The translations under genes and the position numbers were made by a program. The notes under the pieces are model-generated. The model had not been told where the DNA came from. It made no database searches and was given only the letters and a program-made list of their open reading frames with translations. This document shows, piece by piece, positions 6,683 to 40,185 of a DNA stretch of 51,312 nucleotides (its first letter is position 1; each line of letters starts with the position of its first letter). The stretch spans positions 1 to 51,312 of the forward strand of contig DYFC01000019.1 in the NCBI GenBank assembly GCA_020725385.1, read 5' to 3'. The DNA comes from Nitrospira japonica. GTDB lineage: Bacteria; Nitrospirota; Thermodesulfovibrionia; Thermodesulfovibrionales; SM23-35.

Positions 6683-6709
6683 CAAATCCTCCTCGATTTA
6701 GGAATATGC

Positions 6710-9409
6710 TTAAGTTTTAGCTAATATTTCTTCTTTAACTTTTGAAATAATCTCAATAGCTCCTGTCGGACAATATTTGACACATTCACCACAGCGGGCA
6801 CATGCTTTTTGTTTAATCTCGAAATATGTATATTCAGAAGGCCGCGATTCCGATGCTTTAGCCATGATCGCTTCAAATTTACATTTTTTCAAACATTCAC
6901 CACATCTGATGCAAAGGTCAGGATTTATTAAATAAGAAATTGAACTGATGCATTCTCTATTTGAACAAATACCCGATAAATGAAGCCTGAATTCCTCTTC
7001 TGATGAAGATAGTATTTCAGAAAGAAATCTTCCTGTATCTCTTCCTTTTTTACAAAAAGAGGCTTCAATCATGTTTGAGGCAATTGTTTTTAATGCATCA
7101 ATATCGTTTTCTCCTGCACCTTCAAGTTTTTGTGTAATTCTTAATAATCTTAATTTAGCTTCTTCTGTGCCAAATGAACATGGATAGCATCTACCGCACA
7201 TTGGTCCTTCAATAAACTCCTCGATAAAAGTAAGGGATTTTTGAACAGGGCATATCTTCTTTTCGACATCGTGGAATATTTCATCAAGAGGAATATCAAC
7301 AGGGACCTGTTCTTTTTCCTTTAACCCTTCATAGGCAATCTCAGCAGAAGCAACTTTTAAAAACTTGCCTATTTTTTCATACTTAATAGCTCCCATCGGA
7401 CAGACATTGAAACAATCACCACATTTTTTGCATATATTACTGTCAATGATAAAACCTGTTGAAGTTTCTTTTATAGCATCAACCCTGCATACATTTATAC
7501 AGCTTCTGCAGAAATAACAGAGTTCTTTGTCTATATAGAGAACAGGTTGTTCTTTGATTTCAATTGCTCCCAGAGGACACACACTAAAACATGCCTTGCA
7601 TCTCTGACACAGAACCTGATCAATATAAAAGAAACCTTCATTGGATTCCTTTATGGCTTCAAATGGACAGGCATCCATACAGCGTTTACATTGATAACAT
7701 ATATCAGTATTAAGATGAAGCTGTCCCAATCCCTGACATACAAAAGCTCTGCAATATTTATTTTTAATATGCTCTTCATATTCATCTCTGAAGTATTTTA
7801 TTGTGGTAAGAACAGGATTTGGAGCGCTTTTCCCGAGTCCGCAAAGAGAAGCACTCTTTATATAATTTCCAAGTTCTTCAAGTCTTTCTATATCTCCTTC
7901 TTCTCCATTCCCCGATGTAATCTTCTCGAGTATTTGTAGCATTTGGAAAGTTCCCACCCTGCAGGGGTAGCATTTACCACATGATTCGGATTGGCAGAAA
8001 GATAAGAAAAATTTTGCTACATCAACTATACAATTATCTTCATCAAGAACAACCATGCCCCCTGAACCCATTATCGAGCCAATTTTTGTCAGAGAATCAA
8101 AATCTATTGGTAGATCAAGATATTTTTCAGGAATACAACCTCCGGAAGGACCTCCTGTCTGTACTGCTTTAAACTTTTTATCTCCAATTATCCCGCCGCC
8201 AATGTCATAAATAATTTCTCTAAGGGTTATACCCATCGGCACTTCAACAAGTCCTGTATTCTTCACTTTTCCTGTAAGTGCAAAAACCTTTGTGCCGGGT
8301 GAATTTTGAGTTCCTGTCTTTAAAAACCATGTGGCCCCTTTTTCAATAATTGCAGGTACACATGCATAAGTTTCGATATTGTTCAAATTTGCCGGATAAC
8401 CCCATGGACCGCCGCCTTTTTCGGATAATCTGGGTGGTCTTGGTCTCGGAAATCCTCTTTCACCTTCTATTGAACTGACGAGAGCCGTAGCTTCACCACA
8501 AACAAAGGCTCCTGCACCTTCTCTAATCTGAATTGAGAAATTAAATCCTGTTCCAAGAACATTTTCGCCAAGAAGTCCGATTTCTTCTGCCTGCTTTATA
8601 GCAGTTGAAAGGTGTTTTACAGCAAGGGGATATTCATGCCTGACATAAATAATTCCATAATGAGCTCCAATTGCATATGCACAAAGCATCATTCCTTCGA
8701 GCAAGCTATGGGGGTCGCCTTCCATAATTGATCTATCCATAAAAGCGCCGGGGTCGCCTTCATCTCCATTTGCTATAACAATCTTTTCTGTACCCGAAGA
8801 ATTTTTTGTATGTTCCCATTTTATTCCAGCCGGAAAACCTGCGCCACCTCTGCCTCTTAAATTCGCTCTTTTTACTTCATCAAGAACCTGCTGGGGTGTC
8901 ATAACAGTAAGGGCTTTTTCAATAGCTCTGTACCCACCAACAGCGATATAGTGAATAATATTTTCAGGGTCTATTCTTCCATTATTCCTGAGTGCTATTC
9001 TAAGTTGTTTTCTATAAAAAGGAACATCTTTTATAAAATAAGCGGGCTTTTCACCAAGAGAACGCCTGAACAATAGATCCCATACAGGTCTTTCACCTTT
9101 CAAAGTGAAGGAAATTATGTCTTCAGATCTTTCAGGCTTAACTTTATGATAAAAATAGCCCTGAGGCTGAATAGTCATGACAGGACCTAATTGACACAAG
9201 CCCTGACAGCCGGTAGTTATTATTTCTGCATCAACTCCGGATTCTTTAATATCTTTTTTCAACTTATCAACAAGTTTAAGTGAATTATTCGCTCTACAAG
9301 CTGTTCCGCAACAAACTCTAATTCTTTTTTTGTTTGGAGCAAGGACACCATCTTTGAGTAATTTTTCGCGTAGAGACTTCAGGTCATCTAAACTTTTTAG
9401 TTTTTGCAT
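6710..9409 (-). CDS. NuoF-like NADH/FMN subunit fused to many ferredoxin domains
   Basis: An 899-residue fusion, far longer than NuoF (about 420) or HydB-type subunits (about 600). Order: thioredoxin-like [2Fe-2S] domain (about 28-110, CCGTACRAN and GCQGLC); NADH/FMN-binding core (about 190-450, RGRGGAGFPAG, NGDEGDPGAFMDRSIME, GEATALVSSIEG); NuoF-type 4Fe-4S domain (about 475, SCGKCYPC); four C-x2-C-x2-C-x3-C motifs (about 570-700); a second NuoF-type 4Fe-4S domain (about 720-800, MCGRCYPCSFG); then two more ferredoxin motifs (about 835 and 875). This gives motifs for one [2Fe-2S] and eight [4Fe-4S] clusters. It sits between the nuoE-like and nuoG-like genes. It probably accepts or donates electrons at NAD(H) and wires them to several ferredoxin-type partners. 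Bifurcating activity is possible but not shown. Confidence 0.88.
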   Translation of the reverse strand: MQKLKSLDDLKSLREKLLKDGVLAPNKKRIRVCCGTACRANNSLKLVDKLKKDIKESGVDAEIITTGCQGLCQLGPVMTIQPQGYFYHKVKPERSEDIISFTLKGERPVWDLLFRRSLGEKPAYFIKDVPFYRKQLRIALRNNGRIDPENIIHYIAVGGYRAIEKALTVMTPQQVLDEVKRANLRGRGGAGFPAGIKWEHTKNSSGTEKIVIANGDEGDPGAFMDRSIMEGDPHSLLEGMMLCAYAIGAHYGIIYVRHEYPLAVKHLSTAIKQAEEIGLLGENVLGTGFNFSIQIREGAGAFVCGEATALVSSIEGERGFPRPRPPRLSEKGGGPWGYPANLNNIETYACVPAIIEKGATWFLKTGTQNSPGTKVFALTGKVKNTGLVEVPMGITLREIIYDIGGGIIGDKKFKAVQTGGPSGGCIPEKYLDLPIDFDSLTKIGSIMGSGGMVVLDEDNCIVDVAKFFLSFCQSESCGKCYPCRVGTFQMLQILEKITSGNGEEGDIERLEELGNYIKSASLCGLGKSAPNPVLTTIKYFRDEYEEHIKNKYCRAFVCQGLGQLHLNTDICYQCKRCMDACPFEAIKESNEGFFYIDQVLCQRCKACFSVCPLGAIEIKEQPVLYIDKELCYFCRSCINVCRVDAIKETSTGFIIDSNICKKCGDCFNVCPMGAIKYEKIGKFLKVASAEIAYEGLKEKEQVPVDIPLDEIFHDVEKKICPVQKSLTFIEEFIEGPMCGRCYPCSFGTEEAKLRLLRITQKLEGAGENDIDALKTIASNMIEASFCKKGRDTGRFLSEILSSSEEEFRLHLSGICSNRECISSISYLINPDLCIRCGECLKKCKFEAIMAKASESRPSEYTYFEIKQKACARCGECVKYCPTGAIEIISKVKEEILAKT

Positions 9410-10082: not shown

Positions 10083-10931
10083 ATGATACAGAGCATGACA
10101 GGATTTGGCAGTAGTTCAACAGATGTTTTCACGGTTGAAATACGCTCATTAAATCACAGGTATATGGACATTTTTATAAAACTGCCTTCTTACTTAAATC
10201 ATGCAGAGATGCAAATAAGAAATATTATCAAGGAAAGATTCAGTAGGGGCAGGTTTGATGTTACAATATCTATTAATCCTGAAAAGACATCCCGGTTTAC
10301 AATAAGTAAGAATGTTGCAGAAAATATATATAAAGCTCTTCAATCTTTGCAGAGAGAACTCATGATTCCAGGTGAAATTGGCATAGAGACACTTGCGGCT
10401 TATAAAGAAATATTGCTTGAGAAAGAACCTGAATATAATATTGATGATTTACTTTCTACGGTTTATGAGGCGATTAAAAATCTCGAAGCAATGCGTATAG
10501 AAGAAGGAAAGAATTTACAAAAAGAGCTTTTAAGTAGAATAGAGGTTTTAAGAGATTTAAATGATAAAATTAGGATTAAAGCTCCTGATGAAGTTCCAAA
10601 GCTTAAAGAAAAATTTACAGAGCGATTGAAACTTTTTTTAGAAACTGAAAATATTGAAAGCAATAGAATTTTGCAGGAAGCTGCAATACTGGCTGATAAG
10701 CTTGATATTTCAGAAGAAATATCAAGAATACAAAGTCATATAAAACAGTTTAAAGAAGTCATAGATAGCGGGACAGTTGTCGGGAAAAAACTTGATTTTA
10801 TTCTTCAGGAACTTGGAAGAGAAGTAAATACTCTTTCGTGCAAGTCTGCTGATTATGAAATTTCAAGCATGGTAATTGAAATGAAAACAGAAATTGAAAA
10901 AATAAGAGAACAGGTGCAAAATATACAATAA
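10083..10931 (+). CDS. yicC: YicC/YloC family endoribonuclease
   Basis: A 282-residue member of the YicC/YloC family, whose characterised members are RNA-cleaving enzymes. The N terminus MIQSMTGFGSS and the EIRSLNHRYMDIFIKLP segment (about residues 20-36) are family signatures. The C-terminal domain has VGKKLDFILQELGREVNTL and the Ser/Asp pair in KSADYEIS. It heads a cluster with remA, gmk, rpoZ and coaBC, a gene order conserved in many phyla. It seems to be read from a leaderless mRNA (see the promoter just upstream). Confidence 0.94.
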   Translation: MIQSMTGFGSSSTDVFTVEIRSLNHRYMDIFIKLPSYLNHAEMQIRNIIKERFSRGRFDVTISINPEKTSRFTISKNVAENIYKALQSLQRELMIPGEIGIETLAAYKEILLEKEPEYNIDDLLSTVYEAIKNLEAMRIEEGKNLQKELLSRIEVLRDLNDKIRIKAPDEVPKLKEKFTERLKLFLETENIESNRILQEAAILADKLDISEEISRIQSHIKQFKEVIDSGTVVGKKLDFILQELGREVNTLSCKSADYEISSMVIEMKTEIEKIREQVQNIQ

Positions 10932-10943
10932 TAGGGAGAAGTT

Positions 10944-11225
10944 ATGAAAAAAGGTGAAATTACAAATGTACTGGTTAATATAGGTTTTGGAAATGTTGTA
11001 GCTGCATCAAGAGTTGTTGCTATTGTAACTCCAGGATCTGCTCCGATGAAAAGACTAAGAGAGGAAGCAAAAAAAACAGGCAGACTTGTTGATGCTACAG
11101 AGGGAAGACGTACCCGCTCGATTATTGTCACTGATAGCAACCATATAATATTATCTGCAATACAGGCGGAAACTATTACCCAGCGTTTTATGGAAGGAAC
11201 TGAAATAGGTGCAGAAGAAGAATAG
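10944..11225 (+). CDS. remA: RemA-like DUF370 regulator
   Basis: A 93-residue DUF370/RemA protein. In Bacillus, RemA is a DNA-binding protein that switches on biofilm matrix genes; its role here is unknown. Signatures are the N-terminal [19 protein letters not shown], the central segment [23 protein letters not shown] split as [12 protein letters not shown] and [10 protein letters not shown], and the tail [10 protein letters not shown] clear GGGAG site precedes the ATG, 12 bases after yicC. Its last codons overlap the gmk start by 17 bases. Confidence 0.9.
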
Positions 11226-11835
11226 GGGCAGACTTTTTATTGTTTCTGCTCCTTCAGGTGCTGGCAAAACAACACTTTGTCAGAAAATAATCAAGAAACA
11301 TCCTCAGATTAAGTTTTCAGTATCTTATACTACCCGAATGCCCCGTAAAGGTGAAATAAATAATGTAGATTATACATTTATTGATAGGGAAGAATTTAAA
11401 AGAATGGTATCAGAAGGCAAATTTCTTGAGTGGGCAGAAGTCCACGGAGAATTCTACGGGACATCGCGTGAGAGAATAAAAAGCCTTATTGAAGAGGGTT
11501 TTGATGTTGTTCTCGATATTGATACACAGGGGGCTCTTCAATTAAAGGAAAAGGGAGAAAAAGGTGTTTTTATCTTCATATTACCTCCTTCAATGGAGGC
11601 CCTCAAGCAAAGACTTGTTCGTAGAATGACGGATTCTAAGGATCAGATTTTAAGGAGACTTAAAAGAGCTATAGAAGAAATAAGAACTTATAATTTATAT
11701 GATTATGTTATAATTAACGATATACTTGAAAATTCTATAAAAGAATTTGAAGCTGTTATTATCTCCAATAGGATAAAAACAGAAAATATTAATCCCTTAT
11801 GGATACAAGAGACGTTTTTAAATCAGGAGGTTTGA
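11209..11835 (+). CDS. gmk: Guanylate kinase
   Basis: A 208-residue guanylate kinase that phosphorylates GMP to GDP in nucleotide synthesis. The P-loop is [10 protein letters not shown] (about residues 13-22), followed by the GMP-binding [17 protein letters not shown] segment (about 39-55) and the lid region with [15 protein letters not shown]. The start is a GTG inside the end of remA, with AAGGAA ten bases upstream. This 17-base overlap implies coupled translation. Confidence 0.95.
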
Positions 11836-11842
11836 AAGAAGT

Positions 11843-12247
11843 ATGGACATTATTTCATTGCCAATCGAATACGATCACTCAAAGATAGACAGCAGGTTCA
11901 GGCTAATTGCAATTGCTTCACAGAGAGCAAAGGAATTGGCTTTGGGTGCAACACCAAGAGTTAAAACAAAGTCCAAAAAGGTAACTACAATCGCTATAGA
12001 AGAAACTATAAACAATACTGTAGAGTTTCTTGTAGGTGAAGAAGCTGTAAAAGCAAGAGAAGAAGCCAGTAAGTTTGATTACAGGAAACTCCTTGAAGAG
12101 AAAAAGAGAGAGGTTACATCAGAAGATCTTACTGAATTTGAAAAAGATCTGAAGGTTTATCTTAATGAAAGAGAAGCTCTTGAAAGGGACAAAAAGGCAC
12201 TTGAGGGGCTTTTCGGAGACAAACAAGAGGAAGGTGCTGAAGAATAA
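11843..12247 (+). CDS. rpoZ: RNA polymerase omega subunit
   Basis: A 134-residue omega subunit, which helps assemble and stabilise RNA polymerase. The conserved core is at residues 15-70 (DSRFRLIAIASQRAKEL, then TTIAIEE). The acidic, Lys- and Glu-rich tail from about residue 75 is longer than in many omegas (70-110 residues). AGGAGG seven to ten bases upstream sets the start. It lies between gmk and coaBC as in many genomes. Confidence 0.92.
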   Translation: MDIISLPIEYDHSKIDSRFRLIAIASQRAKELALGATPRVKTKSKKVTTIAIEETINNTVEFLVGEEAVKAREEASKFDYRKLLEEKKREVTSEDLTEFEKDLKVYLNEREALERDKKALEGLFGDKQEEGAEE

Positions 12248-13406
12248 AAATATACTTTTTGGCATTTCAGGCAGCGTTGCAGCCTATAAAACAATCGACC
12301 TGATTAGAAGGCTCAGAGACGAAGGCGCATCGGTCAATGTAATCATGACCGGTGCAGCCCAGAAATTTATAACTCCATTAACTTTTCAAGCAATTTCTAA
12401 CAATAAAGTTTATACAGACCTCTACAGTGAACCAATGTCACACATTTTACTTCCGGTGAGTGCAGATTTATTTGTGATTGCGCCTGCAACTGCAAACATA
12501 ATTGGTAAAATTGCTTCCGGTATCGCAGACGACTTACTCACAACATGTTTTATTGCAAGTACCTGCAAAAAAATTATTGCACCTGCTATGAACTTTAGAA
12601 TGTATGAAAATCCTGTTGTTCAATCTAATTTAAAATCTCTAATTGCGCAAGGAATAATTCAAATCGGACCTGAAAAAGGCTCTCTTGCATGTGGTGAAGA
12701 AGGGCTGGGCAGAATGTCAGAAGTTGGTGATATACTTGAAACTATAAAATCTACTCTTACAGAAAAAGACCTGACAAATGAAAAAATTATTATTACAGCT
12801 GGACCTACAAGGGAATATATTGACCCTGTACGATTCATCTCAAACAGGTCTTCGGGTAAAATGGGGTATGCTCTTGCAAAGGTTGCATTAAGACGCGGGG
12901 CTGAAGTTACGCTGATAAGCGGATATTCAAAGCTTTCGCCTCCATATGGTTCAAATTTTATTTCTATCGAAAGCGCGGAAGAGATGAACAATGCCGTTAA
13001 ATCCAGGGTTGCCTCATCAACTGTTCTCATTATGGCTGCTGCTGTATCTGATTTCAAACCATCTGATTTTTCGCATGATAAAATTGATAAATCTGAAATT
13101 GATATTTTAAGGCTCACAAGAACAATTGATATTATTTCTGAAGCCAGAAAAATTAATCCTGAAATATTTATAATCGGGTTTTCTGCCGAGACAGGCTTTA
13201 AACCTGAAAGGGCATTGAAAAAAATGAATGAGAAAAATATGAATATGATAGTATTTAATGATGTAACAGAAGCAGGTGCAGGGTTTGATACGGAAACGAA
13301 TAAAGTTATTTTAATTGACAGAAATAATCGGATAGAGTTGCCTTTAATGGATAAAGAATCTGTTGCAAATGAGATATTTAACAGAATGAAAAAAATCAAG
13401 GCTTGA
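12234..13406 (+). CDS. coaBC: CoaBC: phosphopantothenoylcysteine synthetase/decarboxylase
   Basis: Bifunctional enzyme of coenzyme A synthesis. The N-terminal flavoprotein decarboxylase (CoaC) has GISGSVAAYKTIDL, the motif APAMNFRMYENP and the catalytic Cys region GSLACGEEGLGRM. The C-terminal CoaB part has ITAGPTREYIDPVRFISN and SSGKMGYALA, then AAAVSDFKP and the KMNEKNMNMIVFND segment. The reading frame is open from 12165, but homology begins only at NILFGISG. The GTG at 12234, overlapping rpoZ by 14 bases, gives the usual N terminus and about 390 residues. An in-frame ATG at 12165 would add 23 unrelated residues. Confidence 0.9.
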   Translation: MLKNKNILFGISGSVAAYKTIDLIRRLRDEGASVNVIMTGAAQKFITPLTFQAISNNKVYTDLYSEPMSHILLPVSADLFVIAPATANIIGKIASGIADDLLTTCFIASTCKKIIAPAMNFRMYENPVVQSNLKSLIAQGIIQIGPEKGSLACGEEGLGRMSEVGDILETIKSTLTEKDLTNEKIIITAGPTREYIDPVRFISNRSSGKMGYALAKVALRRGAEVTLISGYSKLSPPYGSNFISIESAEEMNNAVKSRVASSTVLIMAAAVSDFKPSDFSHDKIDKSEIDILRLTRTIDIISEARKINPEIFIIGFSAETGFKPERALKKMNEKNMNMIVFNDVTEAGAGFDTETNKVILIDRNNRIELPLMDKESVANEIFNRMKKIKA

Positions 13407-13442
13407 CTTTTTTTTAAAATTGATTGAAAATTTTGTCATAAC

Positions 13443-14660
13443 ATGTCACTTGAAGATATAGAAAGACTAAAAGAAAAACTCGCTAAGGATCCTAACTCAA
13501 AATTGTTTGTTCCTCTGGCAGAGGAATATAAAAAAGCAGGGATGCTTGATGAGGCAATTGAGGTTCTCGTTAAAGGGCTCGAAAATCAGCCGGGGTATCT
13601 TAGTGCACGGGTTTCTCTTGGTAAGATATTTATTGAGAGAGGAATGCTTCATGAAGCTCAGGCTGAATTTGAGAAAGTAATCACAGCCATTCCTGACAAT
13701 CTTTATGCTCATAAAAAACTCGCAGAAATTTATAGGGAATTAGGAGAAAAGGAAAAAGCTATAAAAGAATTCCAGATGGTCTTAAAGCTTAATCCTTTGG
13801 ACGAATGGGCAGCAACATCCCTTTCAGAAATAAACAGGCAATCTGCTGAAATAATTGAAGAACCTTCAATTGAGGAAGAGCCTGTTATACAACCTGCATC
13901 TATTGAAGCACCTCCAATTGAAGGAGAACCAACTTTTGAATTGCCTGCAATCGAATCTCAGGAACAAGAAAAAGAGCCCGAAATTATTTATGCAGAAGCT
14001 GAACTTGAATCAATTCCTGATGTATCAGATTTATCATATCCAATTAAAGAAGAAAAAGACACAAATATGGAGCCTTCTGAAAATATACAGGAGGATATTT
14101 TAAAACAATGGGAACAATCCGAACACAAGGAAGAAGTATTGGAACCATCAATGCCTGAACCAACAATAAGTGAAGAAGACAAAGACATTTGGGAATCGCA
14201 TAAAGAATCTATGAAATCTATAAATGAGGCTGAATCTAAAGCTGATTTAAATGATATATGGAAACCTTTATATGAAAGTGAAAAGGAATTAAAAGAAGAA
14301 CAACCATTAGAATCAAAAATTCAAGAACCCGCTTTTCCTTCTGAATCTCCTTTATACGAAAAACCCCGGGAAGAAAGAGAAGAGCTTAAGACAGAAGAGC
14401 AAGAAGAAAGAATTTCTTATATTACAAAAGAACCTGAAGTAGAAGATGCTGATCCTTTTATTGTTGAAGGTAGATATTTTTCAGCAATGAATATTTACAG
14501 AAAAATACTCGAGAAAGACCCTGAAAATAAAAAAGCTATGCAACGCATTGAGGAACTCAGACTTTTAATTAAACTTGCCGGAAAAGATAAAGAAGAACTT
14601 ATTTCAAAACTTGACGGATTTCTTGATGCAATAAAAAAGAGGCGGGATGAGCTTCGCTGA
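13443..14660 (+). CDS. TPR protein with long acidic linker
   Basis: A 405-residue cytoplasmic protein with no signal peptide. Residues 1-130 hold three tetratricopeptide repeats (for example FVPLAEEYKKAGMLDEAIEV and YAHKKLAEIYRELGEKEKAI). Residues about 138-330 are a low-complexity, Glu/Pro-rich and probably disordered linker. Residues about 335-405 hold a further TPR-like unit (ADPFIVEGRYFSAMNIYRKI). It overlaps the roadblock gene by 14 bases, so the two are probably made together and interact. The exact role is unknown. A link to MglA or other polarity GTPases is inferred only from the roadblock neighbour. Confidence 0.82.
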   Translation: MSLEDIERLKEKLAKDPNSKLFVPLAEEYKKAGMLDEAIEVLVKGLENQPGYLSARVSLGKIFIERGMLHEAQAEFEKVITAIPDNLYAHKKLAEIYRELGEKEKAIKEFQMVLKLNPLDEWAATSLSEINRQSAEIIEEPSIEEEPVIQPASIEAPPIEGEPTFELPAIESQEQEKEPEIIYAEAELESIPDVSDLSYPIKEEKDTNMEPSENIQEDILKQWEQSEHKEEVLEPSMPEPTISEEDKDIWESHKESMKSINEAESKADLNDIWKPLYESEKELKEEQPLESKIQEPAFPSESPLYEKPREEREELKTEEQEERISYITKEPEVEDADPFIVEGRYFSAMNIYRKILEKDPENKKAMQRIEELRLLIKLAGKDKEELISKLDGFLDAIKKRRDELR

Positions 14661-15003
14661 GGTTCTAAAAGAAACAGTTGATAAAGTTGACGGTGCTGTA
14701 TCAGCCATGATAATTGGAGCTGATGGTATAACAGTACAGGAATATGTCAATGAGAAACTGATTGATCTGACAGAACTTAGTGCTGAAGCTTCTGCAATGA
14801 TAAAAGATATAAATCTTGCTGCTTTAAATCTTGGAATCGGCGAAGCAAGAGAATTCTCCATTATTTCGGATAAATGCGGCATAATTATGAGAAAGATTAC
14901 TTCTGATTATTATCTTGCTCTGATTATCCATCCTGACGGAAATTATGGCAAGGGCAGATTTATTCTTAAAACCGCAGTACCTAAATTAGCAAGTGAATTT
15001 TAA
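14647..15003 (+). CDS. Roadblock/LC7 domain protein
   Basis: A 118-residue single Roadblock/LC7 domain (VDGAVSAMIIGADGITVQEY at the N terminus, DYYLALIIHPDGNYGKGRF towards the C terminus). Such domains regulate small GTPases or act as scaffolds. Its start codon lies in the end of the TPR gene. It is the second roadblock gene of the window and differs clearly from mglB at 828-1322. No GTPase gene lies beside it, so it may serve the MglA encoded at 229-816 or a GTPase elsewhere. Confidence 0.85.
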   Translation: MSFAEVLKETVDKVDGAVSAMIIGADGITVQEYVNEKLIDLTELSAEASAMIKDINLAALNLGIGEAREFSIISDKCGIIMRKITSDYYLALIIHPDGNYGKGRFILKTAVPKLASEF

Positions 15004-15009
15004 CCCACG

Positions 15010-15441
15010 ATGAAAGTACTCGTAATACATGGCCCTAATCTTAATCTACTCGGCACAAGAGAAACAGGCATTTACGGTACTAAAACTCTTGAAGAAATCA
15101 ATAATGATATTTCTATTCTTGCATCTGAACTCGGAATAAGTGTCAGGGCAATTCAGTTAAATAGTGAAGGTGATATTCTCGATGTTATTCAGAAAAGCGA
15201 TTATGATGCTCTAATTATTAATCCGGCTGCATATACTCACACAAGCATTGCAATCAGAGATGCTATAGCAGCGGTAAATAAACCAGCGGTAGAAGTTCAC
15301 CTTTCCAATATTCATAAACGTGAAGAATACAGAAAAAAATCTTATATTGCTGAGGTTGCCGTTGGACAAATATGCGGCTTTGGCCCGGAAAGTTATCTCC
15401 TCGCCCTGCGTGCAATTAAAAATCTTTTTTTAAATAAATGA
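15010..15441 (+). CDS. aroQ: Type II 3-dehydroquinate dehydratase
   Basis: A 143-residue type II dehydroquinase, third enzyme of the shikimate pathway. Visible signatures are [19 protein letters not shown] (catalytic Tyr near residue 22-25), [31 protein letters not shown] and the catalytic His in these loops. It starts six bases after the roadblock stop with no clear Shine-Dalgarno, so coupling is likely. It is convergent with truA, with a palindromic repeat between them. Confidence 0.95.
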
Positions 15442-15500
15442 ATTTAAAACTTATTGAATCGAGTTGAATAAATTTTTGAACAATACATCCATTTTCCGGA

Positions 15501-15530
15501 TTAACCCGAAAAATGCATTTTCCGGATTAA
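15501..15530. repeat. ATGCAT-centred palindromic repeat containing the truA stop codon
   Basis: A 30-base near-palindrome. Its left half TTAACCCGAAAAATG is identical to that of the element at 41226-41255. Its right half, CATTTTCCGGATTAA, has two changes. The final TTAA supplies the truA stop codon (15527-15529, minus strand). A second CATTTTCCGGATTAA half lies at about 15490-15504, overlapping the left end. It lies in the aroQ/truA convergent spacer. Confidence 0.65.
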
Positions 15531-16294
15531 TAAAAAATTTTTTCTAAGAATAATCCTTGTGGGGGGGCTGTAGGTCCTGCGAGATTTCTATTACGAGACT
15601 CAAGAATATTTTTTAAGTCAGATTCAGAAATCCTTCCTCTTCCAACTTCAATCAATGTGCCTACAATAATTCTAACCATGTGTCTTAAAAAACCATTGGC
15701 TTCTATTCGTATTTTTATAAAGTTTCCCCTTAATTTTACAGTCATAAAGTCTATTTCATGAAGAGTTTCAACATTTAATGAATAAATTGTCCTTGTCGTA
15801 TTTTTTATCTTACTTCCTGTTCCCATAAATGCTGTAAAATCGTGCTCACCTATTAGATATTTTGAAGACGCAATCATAGAATTTATGTCCAAGTATTTTT
15901 TTACAGTAAATGTGTAACGTTGAAGAAAAACCGAAGATTTTCTTTCATTCGCTATGATATAAAAATATATTTTGCGTATCGCATCATCACGTGGATTAAA
16001 AGAAGCATCTATTTCATTGGCATTTAATATTCTAATATCAACCGGAAGAGTAGCATTCAATGCTTTTTTAATAGTTTCAATATCATGCGCTTTTGGAGTA
16101 TTAAATGCTGCTACCTGTGCAAGAGCATGCACTCCTGCATCTGTTCTGCTTGCACCATAAACTTTAGTTGGGACCCCATTTAATTTTTTTATCCTTTCTT
16201 CAATTATCCCCTGTATAGTAATCGCATCATCCTGAACCTGCCAGCCATGATAATTAGTACCATCATATTCTAAAACCAGCTTTATTCTTCTCAT
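15527..16294 (-). CDS. truA: tRNA pseudouridine synthase A
   Basis: A 255-residue pseudouridine synthase that modifies positions 38-40 of tRNA anticodon stems. The N terminus LVLEYDGTNYHGWQVQ and the catalytic Asp motif YGASRTDAGVHA (about residues 46-57) are diagnostic, and FLRHMVRIIVGTLIEVGRG is the conserved C-terminal segment. Full length. Its stop codon lies inside a palindromic repeat. Confidence 0.95.
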   Translation of the reverse strand: MRRIKLVLEYDGTNYHGWQVQDDAITIQGIIEERIKKLNGVPTKVYGASRTDAGVHALAQVAAFNTPKAHDIETIKKALNATLPVDIRILNANEIDASFNPRDDAIRKIYFYIIANERKSSVFLQRYTFTVKKYLDINSMIASSKYLIGEHDFTAFMGTGSKIKNTTRTIYSLNVETLHEIDFMTVKLRGNFIKIRIEANGFLRHMVRIIVGTLIEVGRGRISESDLKNILESRNRNLAGPTAPPQGLFLEKIFY

Positions 16295-16381
16295 TATCAG
16301 AATATTTAAACATAGATTAAAAAAATAGTCTAATTAATTGAAAAATATAATAATTTCTATTATTTTATTAATATTATTAAT

Positions 16382-16410
16382 TTGACAATAAAATAAAATA
16401 GGTATTTAAT
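16382..16410 (+). promoter_or_regulatory. Predicted promoter of the surface-protein operon
   Basis: TTGACA (16382-16387), a 17-base spacer and TTTAAT (16405-16410), close to sigma-70 consensus. Transcription would start near 16417, giving a leader of about 50 bases before the small membrane ORF at 16468. The stretch 16295-16467 is otherwise AT-rich with no gene seen. Confidence 0.55.
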
Positions 16411-16467
16411 AATTTAGTAGTTACAAGCTCCATTTAATTGTTTCTAATGAGAAAGAAAGGGAGTAAA

Positions 16468-16629
16468 ATGGGGGGAGCAAGTGTAGTAAACTTAGTAAAT
16501 GATTTTTATGAGAATCAATACATGATTTCATCTTTACTCTTATCTTTATTTTTAGCTTTAACAAACTTATCTCTCAAATTCTTTAAAAGTCAATCTATTC
16601 TTCATATTTTAAACAATATTATATTTTGA
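16468..16629 (+). CDS. Small membrane protein ahead of the surface operon
   Basis: A 53-residue ORF beginning MGGASVVNLVNDFYENQYM. The ATG at 16468 follows AAGGGAG by five bases, a good ribosome binding site, and the stop lies just before the AGGAGG of the next gene. Residues about 20-38 form a hydrophobic segment (ISSLLLSLFLALTNLSL), likely one membrane helix. I recognise no family. The reading frame is open from 16438, but that earlier ATG has no such site. It could be a true small protein or a leader peptide. Confidence 0.45.
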   Translation: MGGASVVNLVNDFYENQYMISSLLLSLFLALTNLSLKFFKSQSILHILNNIIF

Positions 16630-16651
16630 AAGGAGGTAGCAAATTATCTTT

Positions 16652-18160
16652 ATGAATAAAAAATTTTTAAGAGCAATTATTTTTATAGTCATTATTATTT
16701 TTACCGTCTGTATTGGAAAAACCTATGCAGATGTAAATTCCCTTGAAAAAGGGATAGAGAATTATAGAAGTGAAAATTATGAAGAAGCTCTTTCTTTATT
16801 CATTGAAGCAAGAAAAGAACAACCGGCCTCTTCTATAGCTGCATTTTATCTTGGTGTTACTTACAAGCAATTAAAAGAATATCAATTAGCAGAAAAAAAT
16901 TTAAGAGATTCTTTGCAATTGTCTCCACCTGTAAAAGACGCATATCTTGAACTGGCAGAAGTGCTTTATACGCAGGATCAGCTCAATGAAGCTGAAGGCT
17001 GGGCTTTGAAAGCAGAAACAGAAGGAATAAATCCAGCAAATGCAGTTTTTCTAAGAGGAATGATACTTTCAAAAAGAGGAATAACAGAAGATGCAATTGC
17101 TGCATTTAATAAAGCAAAAAAAATGAATCCGGCACTTGCCCAACCAGCAGATTTCCAGATAGCCCTAATTCAATTAAAGACTCGAAACTTTACTGATGCA
17201 CGGAAAACTTTTAAGGCTATTGAAGAAATTGACCCGACATCCGAGCTTGCTTCATTTGCAAAAGAATATGAGAAATCTTTATCAAGAACCCTCGATATCT
17301 ATAAAACATGGCGTTTTACTATTGGAACCGCATATCAATATGATGACAATGTAATTTTAAAACCAACAACAAGCATACCGGGGGTTGAGATAACAGGAGA
17401 AAGAGATAGCAGCATACTTGCTACACTTGGAATTATTTTTAGCCCTATTTTGAGAGAGCCGTTTTTTATTAACTGCCAATATAATCTTTACACAAACACA
17501 TATTTTGACACAAACACACACAATCTTATGACACATACTATATCTGTTAATCCTGGAATTAATATTAAGAATGGCAGTATTTTTCTTCCTGTCTCATATT
17601 CTCATATATGGGTGCATGAAAGAGAGTATATGAGTTTAATTTCTGTAAAGCCAGGCGTTCAATTTGCATTTCTACCACAACACATAGCAAGATTCTCAAT
17701 CGGATATGATAAAAGAGAACTTCTTAAAGCACCTATTGATAGTGATGAAGACAGGGATGCAAATATCTTCAACGCATCCACAGGATATATACATCCATTC
17801 TCGGGAGGAAAAGGCTTATTCAATTTAATTTATGAGTTTTCATATGATAATAGTGATGGCAAGAACTGGGATAATATTGGGAACAGAATTACAGCAGGCT
17901 TGCTTCTACCTTCATTGATTTTAAAAACAGATTTTATTCTTTCGGGTGAAGTTTTTCTCCAGAATTATAAAAACAACCATACAGTTTTCGATAAGAAGAG
18001 AAAAGATAAGAATTATACACTATCCATAAATCTTGTAAGGGAACTTGTAAGGGGACTGTTCTTGAATCTTCAGTACTCATATACAAGGGCAGATTCAAAT
18101 ATAGCAATTTATGACTACGACCGAAATATTTATACAGCCGGCGTAGAGTATAGATTTTAA
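16652..18160 (+). CDS. TPR protein with C-terminal outer-membrane beta-barrel
   Basis: A 502-residue exported protein. A signal peptide covers about residues 1-26 (hydrophobic IIFIVIIIFTVCIG, then cleavage after TYA). Residues about 30-200 contain five TPR-like repeats (for example AAFYLGVTYKQLKEYQLAEK). From about 215 (WRFTIGTAYQYDDNV) to the end it shows alternating beta-strands and closes with YTAGVEYRF, a barrel-type terminal Phe. The layout resembles Slam/DUF560-like TPR-barrel proteins that move or display surface proteins, but the match is structural and by eye. AGGAGG lies 15 bases before the ATG, a long spacing. It precedes the FecR-domain gene by 11 bases. Confidence 0.75.
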   Translation: MNKKFLRAIIFIVIIIFTVCIGKTYADVNSLEKGIENYRSENYEEALSLFIEARKEQPASSIAAFYLGVTYKQLKEYQLAEKNLRDSLQLSPPVKDAYLELAEVLYTQDQLNEAEGWALKAETEGINPANAVFLRGMILSKRGITEDAIAAFNKAKKMNPALAQPADFQIALIQLKTRNFTDARKTFKAIEEIDPTSELASFAKEYEKSLSRTLDIYKTWRFTIGTAYQYDDNVILKPTTSIPGVEITGERDSSILATLGIIFSPILREPFFINCQYNLYTNTYFDTNTHNLMTHTISVNPGINIKNGSIFLPVSYSHIWVHEREYMSLISVKPGVQFAFLPQHIARFSIGYDKRELLKAPIDSDEDRDANIFNASTGYIHPFSGGKGLFNLIYEFSYDNSDGKNWDNIGNRITAGLLLPSLILKTDFILSGEVFLQNYKNNHTVFDKKRKDKNYTLSINLVRELVRGLFLNLQYSYTRADSNIAIYDYDRNIYTAGVEYRF

Positions 18161-18171
18161 GGAGAGAAAAA

Positions 18172-20376
18172 ATGAGAGATAAAATCAGAAAAAATATTAT
18201 TTTCTCAAAAGGAATGGCTTTATATTTGTTCTGCTTTTTTATATTGGGTTATACACTATTCAACACTACATTGTCGAATGCAGCAGAACCAGCAGGAAAG
18301 TTCACATACGTTGAAGGTAAAGTGGATGTACTCAGAGGTGGTTCACCACCAGCTATTGCTGCAAAAGTTCCTGATAATGTTTTCCCAGGGGATATTATAA
18401 GAACAAAAAGCAACTCCAAAGCAGAACTTATTATGAAAGACAACACTGTTCTTCGTATCGGTCAAAGGAGCAGGATCGATATTAGTGAATATCTTTCTGA
18501 TGAGAAAAATTACAAGAGTTCTATAAAACTTCAAAGAGGACAGGTCAAGGCAGTTGTTGATAAGAATGTCTCCAGGAGAATTTCTCTATCTCCTGATGCA
18601 AATAGATTTGAAATACAGACACCAAATGCAGTGGCAGGTGTTAGGGGAACAGAGTTTTTTGTAGCATATGAGCAGAATACAACAACGGTACTTTTAAAAG
18701 AAGGGGAGGTTTGTGTTTATAACATAAAATCACCTGATCATATAGTGTGTCTTCCACCTTCATATATAGTGACAATTACAGGTGCTTTGATTCCCCAACA
18801 ACCGCGAAAAGCAACAGAAACAGAAATGCGCATTTTTGAGACAGCAACAGAGCCCGGCGCTCCATTTTCAAGAGTTTTCCCTGAAAATATTATTGCTGAT
18901 AGACCCGAAATTATCGGTGGAGAAACAGACAAAGGTATAACTCGCCATCCTGAAATACTTTCTCTTGCAGAAACACCTACAAATCTAACCGATATGCCTT
19001 TAACTTTGCCTATAACAGATATAATTACTCCGGAACCAGGACCGCAACCTGTTTATGACAGGTTCAGGAGTGTTTTCAGTACAAATGTTTGGTCAGCGTA
19101 TCCGTCTAATTCTGACGGAAGCATTGGTGCTGCAATGTTTGGAAATACATCACCATGGACTTCTTCCTCTTCAGCCAAAATAACCGGTTCATATCTCACA
19201 AACAGCAATTCACCCCATATCTGGTTTGATAATAATGTTTATAGTTTCAATGGAAAAAATTCTACAAATACAACTCTTGATGGAGGTGCATACAGAGGAT
19301 TTCTCTCAGGAAAGGAAATTAATGGGTCTTCGGATGCAAGATTTAATGGTCTTTATATTGATCCGTCAGGAAATATAGGAATATTAAGAGGAAGCTTTAC
19401 AGGTACAACAGGAAATAACTCTATTGATTTAAACGGAGAACTTTCTGCAGTTCAACTTGGAACTTCTTCAATGAACGCCTCTGATTTTTATAATAATGTT
19501 TCATCCTTCAGCGCTCCATTCTCTGTAAACAGTGAAGCAGGAATAACAGGTTCCGGTATTTTTAACTCAATGAATATATCCGGGCAAAATGACTGGGGGA
19601 TAGCACAGATTGAACTGGGAGGTTCATATTCAGATACTCCTCAAAATTCATGGCTATTTGCCGCATCAGGTTCTGGCGGTGGTTTTACTTTTGAATCAGA
19701 TATAACAGGTTCACAATGGTCTTCTAACAGAGTATCCGGTTCTGCCAGAGGTTACTGGATAGATTCAAGAACATCTTCTCCTGCAACTGGAATTTATATC
19801 GGAGAAACAACAGGGACTTTCAATCCATCCGAGCATACATGGCAGACAATAACAACAGGAACATGGCTTGAGACAAGCAAGTTTTTACAAATGGCTTCAG
19901 ATGCAGCGGGAAGAAGCAAGCTCCAGCAGTTAAATATACCTGCTTTTGAAGTTGGAAGAACAGACCTTTCAGGTTCTTTAATTGCAGGTTCTGAGTCATC
20001 AATTGATTATGTAAGCGTTACAATGAACAATGTTGCATTTTTTGCTCCATCGACAGGTGGCAAACCTTCAATATGGGCAACAGATGATATTACAGGCCAG
20101 TATAATTTCAGCAATGGCTTCTTAAGCGCCGGTAATATTACAAATGCAGACAATACTTTTACTTTGAGCAATGGAGATAGCATTAGCGCGGATTTCCGTT
20201 TTACTCAATGGAATACCTCAAATAACACATGGTCTGCAAATATTTCTAATGGAACAGGCACCTTAAGCGGAGGTTCATACAATGGACCGGTTTCATTCAG
20301 AGGTGGAGCTGCTGGAACATTAACAGGCACAAACTCCGGCAATCTTTCAGGAACAGGAGCAGGAATTGTAAGGTAG
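18172..20376 (+). CDS. Exported FecR-domain protein with long beta-rich tail
   Basis: A 734-residue protein with a signal peptide at about 1-40 ending in SNAAEPAG. Residues about 42-190 are a FecR domain: VEGKVDVLRGG, FPGDIIRTKSNSKAEL, KDNTVLRIGQRSRIDI and TPNAVAGVRGTEFFV. Such domains sense or bind in the periplasm. From about 290 to the end it is Ser/Thr/Gly/Asn-rich with repeated short beta motifs of the G-T-W/S-G-S type, like a secreted repeat or passenger region. No membrane helix other than the signal is seen, so it is not a classical anti-sigma factor. AAGGAGAG lies ahead of the ATG. Confidence 0.78.
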   Translation: MRDKIRKNIIFSKGMALYLFCFFILGYTLFNTTLSNAAEPAGKFTYVEGKVDVLRGGSPPAIAAKVPDNVFPGDIIRTKSNSKAELIMKDNTVLRIGQRSRIDISEYLSDEKNYKSSIKLQRGQVKAVVDKNVSRRISLSPDANRFEIQTPNAVAGVRGTEFFVAYEQNTTTVLLKEGEVCVYNIKSPDHIVCLPPSYIVTITGALIPQQPRKATETEMRIFETATEPGAPFSRVFPENIIADRPEIIGGETDKGITRHPEILSLAETPTNLTDMPLTLPITDIITPEPGPQPVYDRFRSVFSTNVWSAYPSNSDGSIGAAMFGNTSPWTSSSSAKITGSYLTNSNSPHIWFDNNVYSFNGKNSTNTTLDGGAYRGFLSGKEINGSSDARFNGLYIDPSGNIGILRGSFTGTTGNNSIDLNGELSAVQLGTSSMNASDFYNNVSSFSAPFSVNSEAGITGSGIFNSMNISGQNDWGIAQIELGGSYSDTPQNSWLFAASGSGGGFTFESDITGSQWSSNRVSGSARGYWIDSRTSSPATGIYIGETTGTFNPSEHTWQTITTGTWLETSKFLQMASDAAGRSKLQQLNIPAFEVGRTDLSGSLIAGSESSIDYVSVTMNNVAFFAPSTGGKPSIWATDDITGQYNFSNGFLSAGNITNADNTFTLSNGDSISADFRFTQWNTSNNTWSANISNGTGTLSGGSYNGPVSFRGGAAGTLTGTNSGNLSGTGAGIVR

Positions 20377-20418
20377 AAATATAATCTTAAGAGAATAAAA
20401 TTAGAGGAGTGATAAAAC

Positions 20419-23400
20419 ATGAAGAAGAATTTTAAGCATAGGTTTTTAATCTGTCTTTCCTTCATAATAAGCTTTTTATTTTTAACATGTACAGATAATT
20501 TGTTCGCGGATAATCCTGTTAACCAGAAAATCAAGCCACTGACAAATAAAATACAGTTGCCTTTTATTGCCAATGAAGGACAGATTGATAAAAGTGTCAA
20601 ATACTATGCACGCACTTTTAGCGGGAATGTTTTTATCACTAAGGACGGAGAGATTATCTACTCAATACCGCAAATAGAAAAAGAGATTGAAGCTAATGCA
20701 AAAACTTCCGGCCTGATAATAAAAGAAATATTCGCAGGTGAAACTTTAACCCCCTCTTTTAAAGGTGAAGGAAGAAGCACAAAAATTAGTATATTTAAAG
20801 GAAATGAACCTTCTAAATGGAAAAAGAATATACCATCATATCAGCAACTCAGTTTAGGAGAGATTTATAAAGGGATTGAACTTAAGTTAAAAGCTTATGA
20901 TGAAACAATCGAAAAAATATTTTTTGTAAAACCCGGTGCTAATCCGGATGCTATTAAACTTAAGATTGAAGGAGTACAAAAACTTAATGTTAATGAAAAA
21001 GGTGAACTTGAAGTCTATGTTGAAAACAATAAGATAATATTTAGTAAACCCGTTGCTTATCAGAAAAAAATAAATGGTGAGAAGGAAAATATTCAGGTTT
21101 CCTATCTTGCATATGAAAATCAATATAGTTTTAAGGTTGGAGATTATGACAAAAGCCGTGAACTTATAATTGACCCCTATGTTGGAGTAAAAATAAAAGG
21201 TTCTGCTGAAGACAGAGCTTATGCAATTATGACATATTTTGATGGTGATGTGAATCGTGTTTTTGTCGCAGGATATTCTTATTCGTTTGACTTCCCGGTA
21301 AATGGATTTTATGGAATACCGGGTATAAATGATGCCGATGCTTTTGTAGCAAAACTTTCTTATGATCTCAGTTGGGCTCAAAACATTGTTTTTATAGGAG
21401 GCACTGCAGATGATTTTGCATACTCAATTGCAATGGACAGCGCTCAAAATGTTTATATAGCAGGAACTACAAATTCTTCCAATCTTCCTCTACCTAATGC
21501 CAATGCTTATGATCAGGAAAGTAATGGAACAGATGCTTTTATTGCAAAACTTTCTTATGATCTTGATGACCTAATATCTCTTACATATCTCGGTGGAGTT
21601 TCACTTGATGCTGTTAATACAGATTCACTTCTAATAAATGGATATGATATTGTGGTAGCAGGTTATACAAATTCTACAGATTTTCCAACTCCTGACATTT
21701 ATGCATATGATAGAACACATAATGGAGGTGAAGACGTCTTTATTGCAATATTAAATACAGGTCTTGAAGGAGACCCGCCTACAAGCGGCCTTGAAAATTT
21801 AATAAGCTCAACTTTCTTAGGTGGTTCGGGTAACGAAAGACCATATGGTTTATCTGTAAGACAGGGATATAATGAATATTATGTTGCGGGTTATACAACT
21901 TCAAGTAATTTCCCAACAACCGGTAGCGCATATGATACATCTTATAATGGTGGGAGCAGTGATGCTTTTATATCAAGGATAATGAATCTGGGATATAGCC
22001 CTCTTCAATCTCTTGTTTCTTCCACTTTTCTTGGAGGAAATGGTACGGATGAAATTCACGGACTTATGGTAAGTGGCTCACCTGACTATTATGTATATGT
22101 AACTGGCAATACAGATTCTTCTAATTTCCCAGGTACATGCGATCACGGCAGTTGTGGCGGGATGGATGCTTTTATAGCTCGTTTTGAAAGTTTTCTTTCA
22201 AATAGTCCTACACCTGTATTTACAAAACTTGGCGGCACAAGTTCTGATTACCCGAAATCATTGATTTTAAACGGAGGTATGGTTTATGTTTCAGGAGTAA
22301 CCTATTCGAATGATTTTCCAACAACCATAAATGCTTTTGATCAAACATTCGGCGGGACTCATGGAACAAATTCAGATGGCTTTATATTAAGATATGACAG
22401 TAGTTTAGTGAATTTTGATGCATCAACATATCTTGGCGGGTCGTTAGATGATTTTGCGCCTGCAATTGCTGCAGATACTTCAAATAATATTTATGTTGCT
22501 GGAAGTACAAATTCTTCAGATTTCCCTACTACATTAAATTCAATCGGAAGGGCAAGCGGAAATTTTGAAGCTTTTGTTGCAAAATTTGATAGTATGCTCG
22601 TCGGCACTTCATGCATATATACACTCAATTCTGAAGAAACAACTATTACTTCAGGAGGAGGAAATTTCAGTATTAACATTACAACCACATCGGGTTGTTC
22701 ATGGGAAGCTTATACCGAGGATTCCTGGATAAATATAACATCAGGAAGCGGAACCGGAAGTGGAACAATAAATTATACAGTTGCTCCCAATTCAGGGAGA
22801 GTAAGAAAAGGTGTCATTTATATTGAAGGTAAGTATTTTGATATTTATCAAACAGGAGTCAATTCCGCAAGAATTACAAATCCTTCTAATAGTCATCAAT
22901 ATCAGAGATTTGATTTATTAAGAAGTTTTGACGGTGCAAAGTCTTATTGTGAAAGTCTTGGTGGTTATCTTGCTACAATTACTTCAACTGCTGAGCAAAG
23001 CTTTGTTTATAATAATTTGGTTTCAGGGATAAACATGGAGTTTCAAGAATGCTGGATAGGTGGTTTTCAAACTGCCTGTACACCGGAGCCTTCATGTGGC
23101 TGGCAATGGGTAACAGGTGAGACTTGGGGATTTACAAACTGGGGAGAATCTGAACCAAATAATGTTGGTGGGATCGAAGACAGCGTTTTGATGATAGGAG
23201 GCGGAGCATGGAATGACCTATACAAGCTGCATTTGAGAAGTTTTGTATGTGAATGGGATAGAACTTATGTGCTTACAGTAAGCAAAACAGGTACCGGTAC
23301 AGGCACTGTAACCAGTAATGAGACAACAAATCCGAAAATAAATTGTGGAAGTGTATGTGGCGCTATATATAATGCAGGTGAGAATGTAACTTTAATCGCA

Positions 23401-24744
23401 ACTCCTGGAACAAATTCTGAATTTAGCGGTTGGGATGGAGCAGGATGTAGCGGCACATCTTCCTGCACAATATTAATGAATGAAAGCAAAGCAGTAACAG
23501 CAATATTTACAAAAAACAAGTTTACTGTTACTCCTATTTTCGATGAACACGGGACAATGAATCCTTCAACACCACAACTTGTGAATTCAGGTGCAACAGT
23601 TCAATTTACCATAACACCAAATTCCGGCTATAGAATACAATCTGTAAGTGGCTCATGTGGTGGCACTCTTAATGGTAACACTTATACAACAAATCCTGTA
23701 ACAACAGATTGCGATGTAAGAGTTGTTTTTGCAAGTAATGTAATAAATATCTCAGCAAGTGCAGGCCCGGGAGGTAGCATAAGCCCGACTTCTGCTACAG
23801 TTAATTATGGTGAAACAGTTGAATTTATTGTTACACCTGATGACACATACCATATTTCATCTGTCACAGGATGCGGGGTAACAAAGAAGACAGGACAGGC
23901 AGCAGGCGCTAAAAAGAAAAAGAAACCAAAGATTACGGCAGCTTCCGAGACATATATAACAGCTCCAATAACAGAAACATGCACTGTCACAGCGACTTTT
24001 GCGATTAATACATTCACAGTTACTCCTCTGGCAGGAGAACACGGAAGCATGACTCCATCAACACCCCAGACAGTTAATTATAATGATATAATCACTTTCA
24101 ATGTAAAAGCAGATGAGGGCTATCACATATCATCAGTATCAGGATGCGATGGTACAGCTTATACAGAAGCTAAAAAGAAAAAGAAGAAAAAACTTCAAGC
24201 AGTAAGCGAATATGTTTATACTACAGGAAAAATAACAGGTGATTGTACAGTTGAAGCAACATTTGCAATTAATAAATATACAGTAACCCCGAAAGCAGGC
24301 GAACATGGGAGCATAAGCCCGTCAACACCCCAAAGTGTAAATTACAATGAGAAGGTTTCTTTTACTTTGACACCTGATGCTCACTATCACATTTCATCTG
24401 TCACAGGCTGCGGAGGAACCCTTTCAGATAATACATATACCACAGGAAACATTACAGGCGACTGTACAGTTGAAGCTAAATTTGGTGGAGATACATTTGG
24501 TGCTACAATTCAACAGACCGGTGGAAGTGGAACAATATCAGGCAATGGATTTTCTTGTGAAGGAAACACATGTTCGGGATCATTTGAATATGGTTCAAAA
24601 CTTGTAATTAAAATAAAACCTGATCCAGGATATAGGATAAAGGATATTAAGATAAATGGTGTTTCAATTGGTGCAATTTCTGTAATTACAATAAAACAGG
24701 TTTTGAGTGCTTATAACATCGAAATTATATATGAGCCAGTTTAA
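20419..24744 (+). CDS. Giant SBBP/BACON/C-type lectin surface protein
   Basis: A 1441-residue exported protein. Order by eye: signal peptide 1-30; SBBP-associated N-terminal domain (about 45-255, FIANEGQIDKSVKYYA); SBBP beta-propeller repeats (about 260-725, with recurring STFLGGSGNE and VAGYTNSTDFPT); a BACON-type domain (about 732-812, SGCSWEAYTEDSWINI); a C-type lectin domain (about 816-945, WIGGFQ, WGESEPNNVGG, FVCEWD); four to five InlB-type beta repeats (about 948-1355, recurring TVTPxAGEHGSxSPSTPQ); and a short C-terminal domain. Two repeats carry lysine-rich inserts near residues 1164 and 1251. A large adhesin or sugar-binding surface protein is likely. The substrate is unknown. Confidence 0.85.
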   Translation: MKKNFKHRFLICLSFIISFLFLTCTDNLFADNPVNQKIKPLTNKIQLPFIANEGQIDKSVKYYARTFSGNVFITKDGEIIYSIPQIEKEIEANAKTSGLIIKEIFAGETLTPSFKGEGRSTKISIFKGNEPSKWKKNIPSYQQLSLGEIYKGIELKLKAYDETIEKIFFVKPGANPDAIKLKIEGVQKLNVNEKGELEVYVENNKIIFSKPVAYQKKINGEKENIQVSYLAYENQYSFKVGDYDKSRELIIDPYVGVKIKGSAEDRAYAIMTYFDGDVNRVFVAGYSYSFDFPVNGFYGIPGINDADAFVAKLSYDLSWAQNIVFIGGTADDFAYSIAMDSAQNVYIAGTTNSSNLPLPNANAYDQESNGTDAFIAKLSYDLDDLISLTYLGGVSLDAVNTDSLLINGYDIVVAGYTNSTDFPTPDIYAYDRTHNGGEDVFIAILNTGLEGDPPTSGLENLISSTFLGGSGNERPYGLSVRQGYNEYYVAGYTTSSNFPTTGSAYDTSYNGGSSDAFISRIMNLGYSPLQSLVSSTFLGGNGTDEIHGLMVSGSPDYYVYVTGNTDSSNFPGTCDHGSCGGMDAFIARFESFLSNSPTPVFTKLGGTSSDYPKSLILNGGMVYVSGVTYSNDFPTTINAFDQTFGGTHGTNSDGFILRYDSSLVNFDASTYLGGSLDDFAPAIAADTSNNIYVAGSTNSSDFPTTLNSIGRASGNFEAFVAKFDSMLVGTSCIYTLNSEETTITSGGGNFSINITTTSGCSWEAYTEDSWINITSGSGTGSGTINYTVAPNSGRVRKGVIYIEGKYFDIYQTGVNSARITNPSNSHQYQRFDLLRSFDGAKSYCESLGGYLATITSTAEQSFVYNNLVSGINMEFQECWIGGFQTACTPEPSCGWQWVTGETWGFTNWGESEPNNVGGIEDSVLMIGGGAWNDLYKLHLRSFVCEWDRTYVLTVSKTGTGTGTVTSNETTNPKINCGSVCGAIYNAGENVTLIATPGTNSEFSGWDGAGCSGTSSCTILMNESKAVTAIFTKNKFTVTPIFDEHGTMNPSTPQLVNSGATVQFTITPNSGYRIQSVSGSCGGTLNGNTYTTNPVTTDCDVRVVFASNVINISASAGPGGSISPTSATVNYGETVEFIVTPDDTYHISSVTGCGVTKKTGQAAGAKKKKKPKITAASETYITAPITETCTVTATFAINTFTVTPLAGEHGSMTPSTPQTVNYNDIITFNVKADEGYHISSVSGCDGTAYTEAKKKKKKKLQAVSEYVYTTGKITGDCTVEATFAINKYTVTPKAGEHGSISPSTPQSVNYNEKVSFTLTPDAHYHISSVTGCGGTLSDNTYTTGNITGDCTVEAKFGGDTFGATIQQTGGSGTISGNGFSCEGNTCSGSFEYGSKLVIKIKPDPGYRIKDIKINGVSIGAISVITIKQVLSAYNIEIIYEPV

Positions 24745-40087: not shown

Positions 40088-40185
40088 TGGCGGGAGAGTG
40101 TGGGAATCGAACCCACCCTGCCCGTTTGTAACAGGCAACACCGGATTTGAAGTCCGGGAGGGACACCAGAGCCCTATACACTCCC
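40088..40185 (-). tRNA. selC: tRNA-Sec (anticodon UCA)
   Basis: A 98-base tRNA with encoded CCA. The anticodon stem CCGGA/TCCGG encloses CTTCAAA, giving the anticodon TCA, which reads UGA. The acceptor begins GGGAGTGT and ends ACTCTCCC then G and CCA, an eight-pair stem with one T-T mismatch. The variable arm (TGCCTG/CGGGCA) is long. The T-arm is GTGGG TTCGATT CCCAC. The long variable arm, eight-base acceptor and UCA anticodon distinguish tRNA-Sec from tRNA-Ser. It implies that the genome uses selenocysteine. No selA, selB or selD is in the window. Confidence 0.93.

Follow-up and report, generated by a model that had tools for sequence, protein, structure and literature searches.

A conserved gene pair for a TPR beta-barrel protein and a FecR protein at a Nitrospira locus: a candidate Slam-like surface display module

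The window, a stretch of 51,312 nucleotides from Nitrospira japonica (contig DYFC01000019.1), carries three closely spaced genes on its + strand. The first (16652-18160), identified by its ORF, a Pfam match and a structure model, encodes a 502-residue protein with a TPR domain and an outer-membrane beta-barrel, a candidate Slam/T11SS-like (SlipAM) exporter. The second (18172-20376) encodes a putatively exported FecR protein of 734 residues, in which a FecR domain (PF04773, 18394-18711, + strand, E = 6.3e-19) is followed by a beta-rich C-terminal region; we presume it to be the exported partner. The third (20419-24744) encodes a presumably secreted protein of 1441 residues with DUF7948 (E = 2.2e-49), SBBP (1.1e-14), BACON (25.7 bits; cut-off 25) and C-type lectin (Lectin_C, 7.4e-11) domains and four divergent InlB B-repeats. 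An earlier note on this DNA had described the barrel and FecR ORFs and the SBBP, BACON, lectin and InlB-like parts of the giant protein, and the family matches bore this description out. The gaps of 12 bp between the barrel and FecR genes and of 43 bp between the FecR gene and the gene for the giant protein make a single transcript plausible.

The close spacing had originally been claimed for four genes, the first being a 53-residue membrane ORF (16468-16629, + strand). It holds for the three genes above. The 53-residue ORF matched no family, and the aligned frame of a same-genus relative has only the starting M-G-G in common with it, so we do not treat it as genic. The idea that it might be a conserved leader peptide was rejected on the same alignment. 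In the 14 kb examined there are 53 ORFs of at least 45 residues, which mostly lie within the three genes or run antisense to them. A single promoter had been proposed for the four genes. Promoter-like sites numbered 34, compared with 32.5 (sd 6.1) in shuffled sequences; a TTGACA-17-TTTAAT arrangement at 16382-16410, spotted by eye, is absent from the list of 34. The sole Rfam match over the window and the leader was a selenocysteine tRNA gene away from the locus (40092-40185, - strand; RF01852, 72 bits), a SIB_RNA match (E = 1, far under the gathering score) being taken as chance. No NCBIfam model exceeded its own cut-off.

The barrel protein starts with TPRs (TPR_2, E = 2.8e-16), and in the AlphaFold2 model (pLDDT 92.5, pTM 0.69) helices at residues 30-216 precede the barrel. 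Residues 220-494 matched positions 1-280 of the 288-position SlipAM profile with 31.9 bits against a cut-off of 22 (E = 1.3e-7). SlipAM (PF04575, DUF560) is the Slam/T11SS domain, and the score above its cut-off gives substance to the previously noted resemblance of the TPR barrel to Slam. In the genome of the window this barrel alone exceeded the SlipAM cut-off, and 10 of the 12 SlipAM rows from 61 related genomes were barrels of this group. TPR_Slam scored 22.6 bits on the window barrel, under its cut-off of 35.2. Among 45 family members, matches at E <= 0.001 were found to SlipAM in 20, TPR_Slam in 23, BBP2_2 in 26 and DUF2860 in 19. POTRA was absent from the 18 families matched by these members at that threshold. 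The adjacency of a barrel gene and a gene for a large secreted protein is reminiscent of two-partner secretion (TpsB/TpsA), but the barrel here carries TPRs instead of POTRA domains and Pfam detected no TPS domain in the partner.

Structure comparison of the barrel with VIA-align gave CymA (Z 21.8 over 276 aligned residues, rmsd 4.2) and OmpG (Z 20.1 over 259, rmsd 3.9) as the best matches, both of them 14-stranded barrels. DSSP assigned 16 strand elements to the model, compared with 14 strands in Slam, which the portions of PMC5449769 available to us describe as a TPR domain plus a 14-stranded barrel. In a PDB sequence search, the best 60 of 225 matches all fell in the TPR part. Foldseek ranked BcsC structures first (9b8a, E = 1.7e-12) and also returned PelBC. 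The Foldseek result and the frequent BBP2_2 matches in the family speak for an exopolysaccharide exporter of the BcsC, PgaA or PelB kind, which likewise combines TPRs with an outer-membrane barrel; the FecR protein would then bind polymer or cell wall in the periplasm. However, SlipAM spans the whole barrel, no polysaccharide synthase or glycosyltransferase gene is recognisable next to the pair in the window, and what constantly accompanies the barrel is a FecR protein with a large beta-rich region of its own. We consider a polysaccharide exporter unlikely.

The barrel and FecR genes are a real, conserved unit, which the four-gene set is not, and the pair recurs in several bacterial phyla. Named isolates with the pair include Geobacter sp. 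OR-1 (L154) and Desulfobotulus alkaliphilus (L155). For the named scan, ten close barrels were aligned and genome contigs were searched with the result. This led to 62 named loci, whose titles refer to Nitrospirae, Thermodesulfobacteriota or Deltaproteobacteria, Omnitrophota and a few other groups. Five duplicate loci remain in this listing and were removed before the chaperone count and upstream control described below. Fifty loci include at least 1 kb of sequence downstream of the barrel gene. In 49 of them a FecR gene follows in the same orientation, no more than 2.1 kb away, at a median gap of 33 bp and within 150 bp in 35 loci. In the lone exception (L153), a FecR-type C-terminal region lies upstream of the barrel. 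For a broader sample across the phylum, barrels were found over 295 genomes and 80 regions were taken, in which 78 barrels were recognised, 73 of them with at least 1 kb downstream. A FecR gene was adjacent (within 600 bp) to 51 of the 73, and to 48 of the 57 barrels with matches better than 1e-95; the other 22 of the 73 had no adjacent FecR gene. In many of the most distant members, among them L287, L288, L289, L291, L293 and L294, the FecR gene is about 3 kb away on the opposite strand, at a near-constant distance. A first set of relatives had the FecR gene adjacent in 26 of 31 cases. The three neighbourhood sets overlap in genomes, and their counts are not summed. Only three FecR genes are present in the genome of the window, and chance adjacency should therefore be rare.

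Scattering of the genes in relatives, which the earlier note had named as evidence against the set, was found for the giant protein and not for the barrel and FecR genes. DUF7948 had 20 matches in 14 of the 61 related genomes, and only 2 of the 20, in the window and in a same-genus relative, adjoin the pair. Proteins with the repeats of the giant protein followed the pair at 3 of 57 loci, with the FecR gene in between in all three. These counts speak against a four-gene cassette with the giant SBBP/lectin protein as the export substrate of the barrel, an arrangement suggested by the tight spacing of the FecR and giant genes (43 bp here, 16 bp in the same-genus relative) and by the pair in G011, which is also followed by a protein with similar repeats, split into two ORFs. 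We regard such a cassette as very unlikely, and on the DUF7948 counts the giant protein was rejected as the main cargo. The earlier proposal that it is the main partner of the barrel thus gives way to the FecR protein, which is the constant neighbour and bears a large beta-rich region of its own, the presumed cargo. The giant protein is best seen as a lineage-specific, separate secreted neighbour, and may be an extra cargo of the same exporter.

Judged by eye, the FecR protein seems to start with a signal peptide and to lack a cytoplasmic part. Its C-terminal region ends in two units, U1 (residues 355-571; 19234-19884, + strand), a lobe of which relatives have as many as five copies, and U2 (residues 572-734; 19885-20373, + strand), a constant C-terminal beta module with the end SGTGAGIVR. 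In window-like loci, the FecR domain, single or double, is followed by zero to five U1 and these by a terminal U2. The end of U2 lies at most 25 residues from the C-terminus in 37 of 44 untruncated ORFs with U1 or U2, and the remaining ORFs with U1 or U2 but no C-terminal U2 are mostly parts of split ORFs. Most window-like FecR proteins are long, up to 2305 residues in one that is cut by a contig end.

FecR itself reads the state of FecA. The family name, and the PF04773 domain shared with FecR anti-sigma and cell-surface signalling proteins, would fit an ordinary channel or receptor barrel whose state is sensed in the periplasm by the FecR protein, the beta-rich part being a periplasmic binding domain. 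Elsewhere in the same genome (L102, 2037-5669), a LysM-like FecR protein is followed by what looks by eye like a CHASE2/HD-type sensor-like protein, which is also in line with sensing. Unlike the anti-sigma proteins, though, the FecR protein of the pair has the signal peptide-like N-terminus and the large C-terminal beta region, and no sigma factor gene was found among the neighbours translated or scanned around the pair. Relatives reach five tandem units and lengths above 2000 residues, which fits a surface protein better than a sensor, and we think sensing rather unlikely.

The model of FecR residues 295-734 was of high confidence (pLDDT 91.4, pTM 0.90) and all beta except for short helices, with eight strand elements in the last unit. 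VIA-align placed TbpB (ten rows) or HphA (one row) in 11 of the top 12 rows (Z 4.0-4.5), and TbpB, HphA or fHbp in 17 of the best 50 (Z 3.2-4.5), in a range where, according to the tool's own warning (Z below 8), a match may reflect merely a common arrangement. TbpB, HphA and fHbp are Slam/T11SS cargo or close homologues of such cargo, and the TbpB-like fold of such cargo consists of a handle and a C-terminal barrel of eight strands. Foldseek returned nothing at E <= 0.001 for this model (best E 1.3e-3, TM at most 0.22) and no TbpB among its best 50 rows. Sequence comparisons were negative as well. Pfam assigned no family to the FecR C-terminal region in 30 homologous stretches, and neither TbpB_B_D nor Lipoprot_C matched these regions at E <= 0.5; TbpB_B_D had no match in the genome of the window. 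Profile comparison with TbpB_B_D proteins of Nitrospirota detected no relation (probability at most 1.3%), and a PDB sequence search gave one match, at E = 0.96. The TbpB_B_D or Lipoprot_C sequence domain is frequent, not universal, in Slam/T11SS cargo. Slam cargo of known structure is reported to have a common fold without sequence similarity, in the portions of PMC5449769 available to us. The predicted likeness of the C-terminal region to the TbpB fold is a weak one, a lead and not proof.

The pairs fall into two locus types. In the second type, a FecR protein of about 200-330 residues is followed by a lipoprotein. All 16 of the second-type lipoproteins tested have a shared N-terminal domain (leave-one-out E of 6e-27 or better), behind which varied surface modules are found, such as fn3, Big_2, Big_5, beta-helix and DUF5122 propellers. 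Among the 51 adjacent pairs of the phylum sample, a lipoprotein came next in 25, the fused form was present in 7, and no pair had both. At one locus (L281), the barrel gene is followed at 16 bp by a gene for a 1401-residue protein that carries the N-domain of these lipoproteins, and a FecR gene was not found.

Chaperone genes were associated with the window-like type. Thirty-nine window-like loci had room for such genes downstream of the FecR gene (33 from the named scan, the window, L070, L075, L076, L079 and L080). Skp (OmpH) or SurA-like genes were found there, at most 2.5 kb from the FecR gene and in the same orientation, in 16 of the 39, several of the 16 being near relatives, and in none of 18 lipoprotein-type loci. 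As a control, the region upstream of the barrel held such genes in 1 of 94 cases. At the window locus, no chaperone gene adjoins the pair. Skp is described as a holdase for the Slam export of TbpB in the portions of PMC9090332 available to us. In Omnitrophota loci L161, L171, L175, L188, L190 and L191, the SurA-like gene is followed by a gene for a small membrane-type protein (about 190 residues) that looks similar across these loci, and some of these loci also have a protein of about 160 residues near the SurA-like gene. One protein of each size was searched with Pfam, without a match.

The data show directly that the pair is conserved, in what order the domains lie, that the C-terminal region is modelled as all beta with high confidence, and that relatives have chaperone genes nearby; export, its direction, the surface location and the role of the FecR protein are what we infer. 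We propose, at about an even chance of being right, that the barrel and the FecR protein constitute a two-gene, Slam/T11SS-like display module which exports the C-terminal region of the FecR protein, and in which the giant protein is not the main partner. The FecR protein would leave the cytoplasm by Sec, and its beta-rich C-terminal units would not yet fold in the periplasm; in relatives, the Skp or SurA-like chaperone probably holds them in that state. The TPR-barrel protein would then recognise U2 and pass the chain through the outer membrane, so that the U1 and U2 units could fold on the cell surface. The FecR domain would serve as a constant N-terminal adaptor, perhaps as an internal tether. 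The SlipAM match, the TbpB-like lead, the terminal unit and the chaperone genes are each moderate evidence, and all agree.

The proposed module resembles Slam/T11SS in its N-terminal TPR domain and outer-membrane barrel above the SlipAM cut-off, in the adjacent gene for a beta-rich protein with a C-terminal module, and in the Skp genes of relatives. It differs in that the pair occurs outside Proteobacteria, that the FecR partner has no lipobox and no TbpB_B_D sequence signal but up to five tandem U1 lobes, and that no TonB receptor was seen beside the pair in the window. A more specific version, which we put forward tentatively and with a low probability, is a Slam-like system beyond Proteobacteria whose exporter, through its TPR domain, grips the FecR domain as a dedicated tether in the periplasm. 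The tandem barrel lobes would be threaded to the surface C-terminus first and the cargo anchored without lipid, while at the sister loci a FecR protein of like kind would serve a separate lipoprotein cargo.

T11SS has been described as a proteobacterial system. If the display module is real, its range would widen to Nitrospirota, Thermodesulfobacteriota and Omnitrophota, FecR domains would gain a new role, and uncultured lineages a means of building large surface proteins; the reading also predicts a specific, testable cargo. The portions of three T11SS papers available to us (PMC8406197, PMC5449769, PMC12282271) do not mention FecR. A search of mainly open-access literature returned nothing on Slam with FecR, on Slam with Nitrospira or on a TPR-barrel secretion system with a FecR domain, and papers retrieved for FecR domains together with TPRs, the outer membrane and the surface concerned other subjects, judged by title. 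We found no published description of such a pair, which is unusual; the earlier note could not put a name to the combination either.

Two loci deviate from the simple pair in gene number. In L139, one barrel gene is followed by genes for two long FecR proteins in tandem (10534-14667 and 14970-19518). In L087, two copies of the barrel and FecR genes of equal length and with the same start (5219-7342 and 11142-13265) lie 5.9 kb apart in one genome, with a separate lipoprotein-type gene behind each copy; a recent duplication may be the cause.
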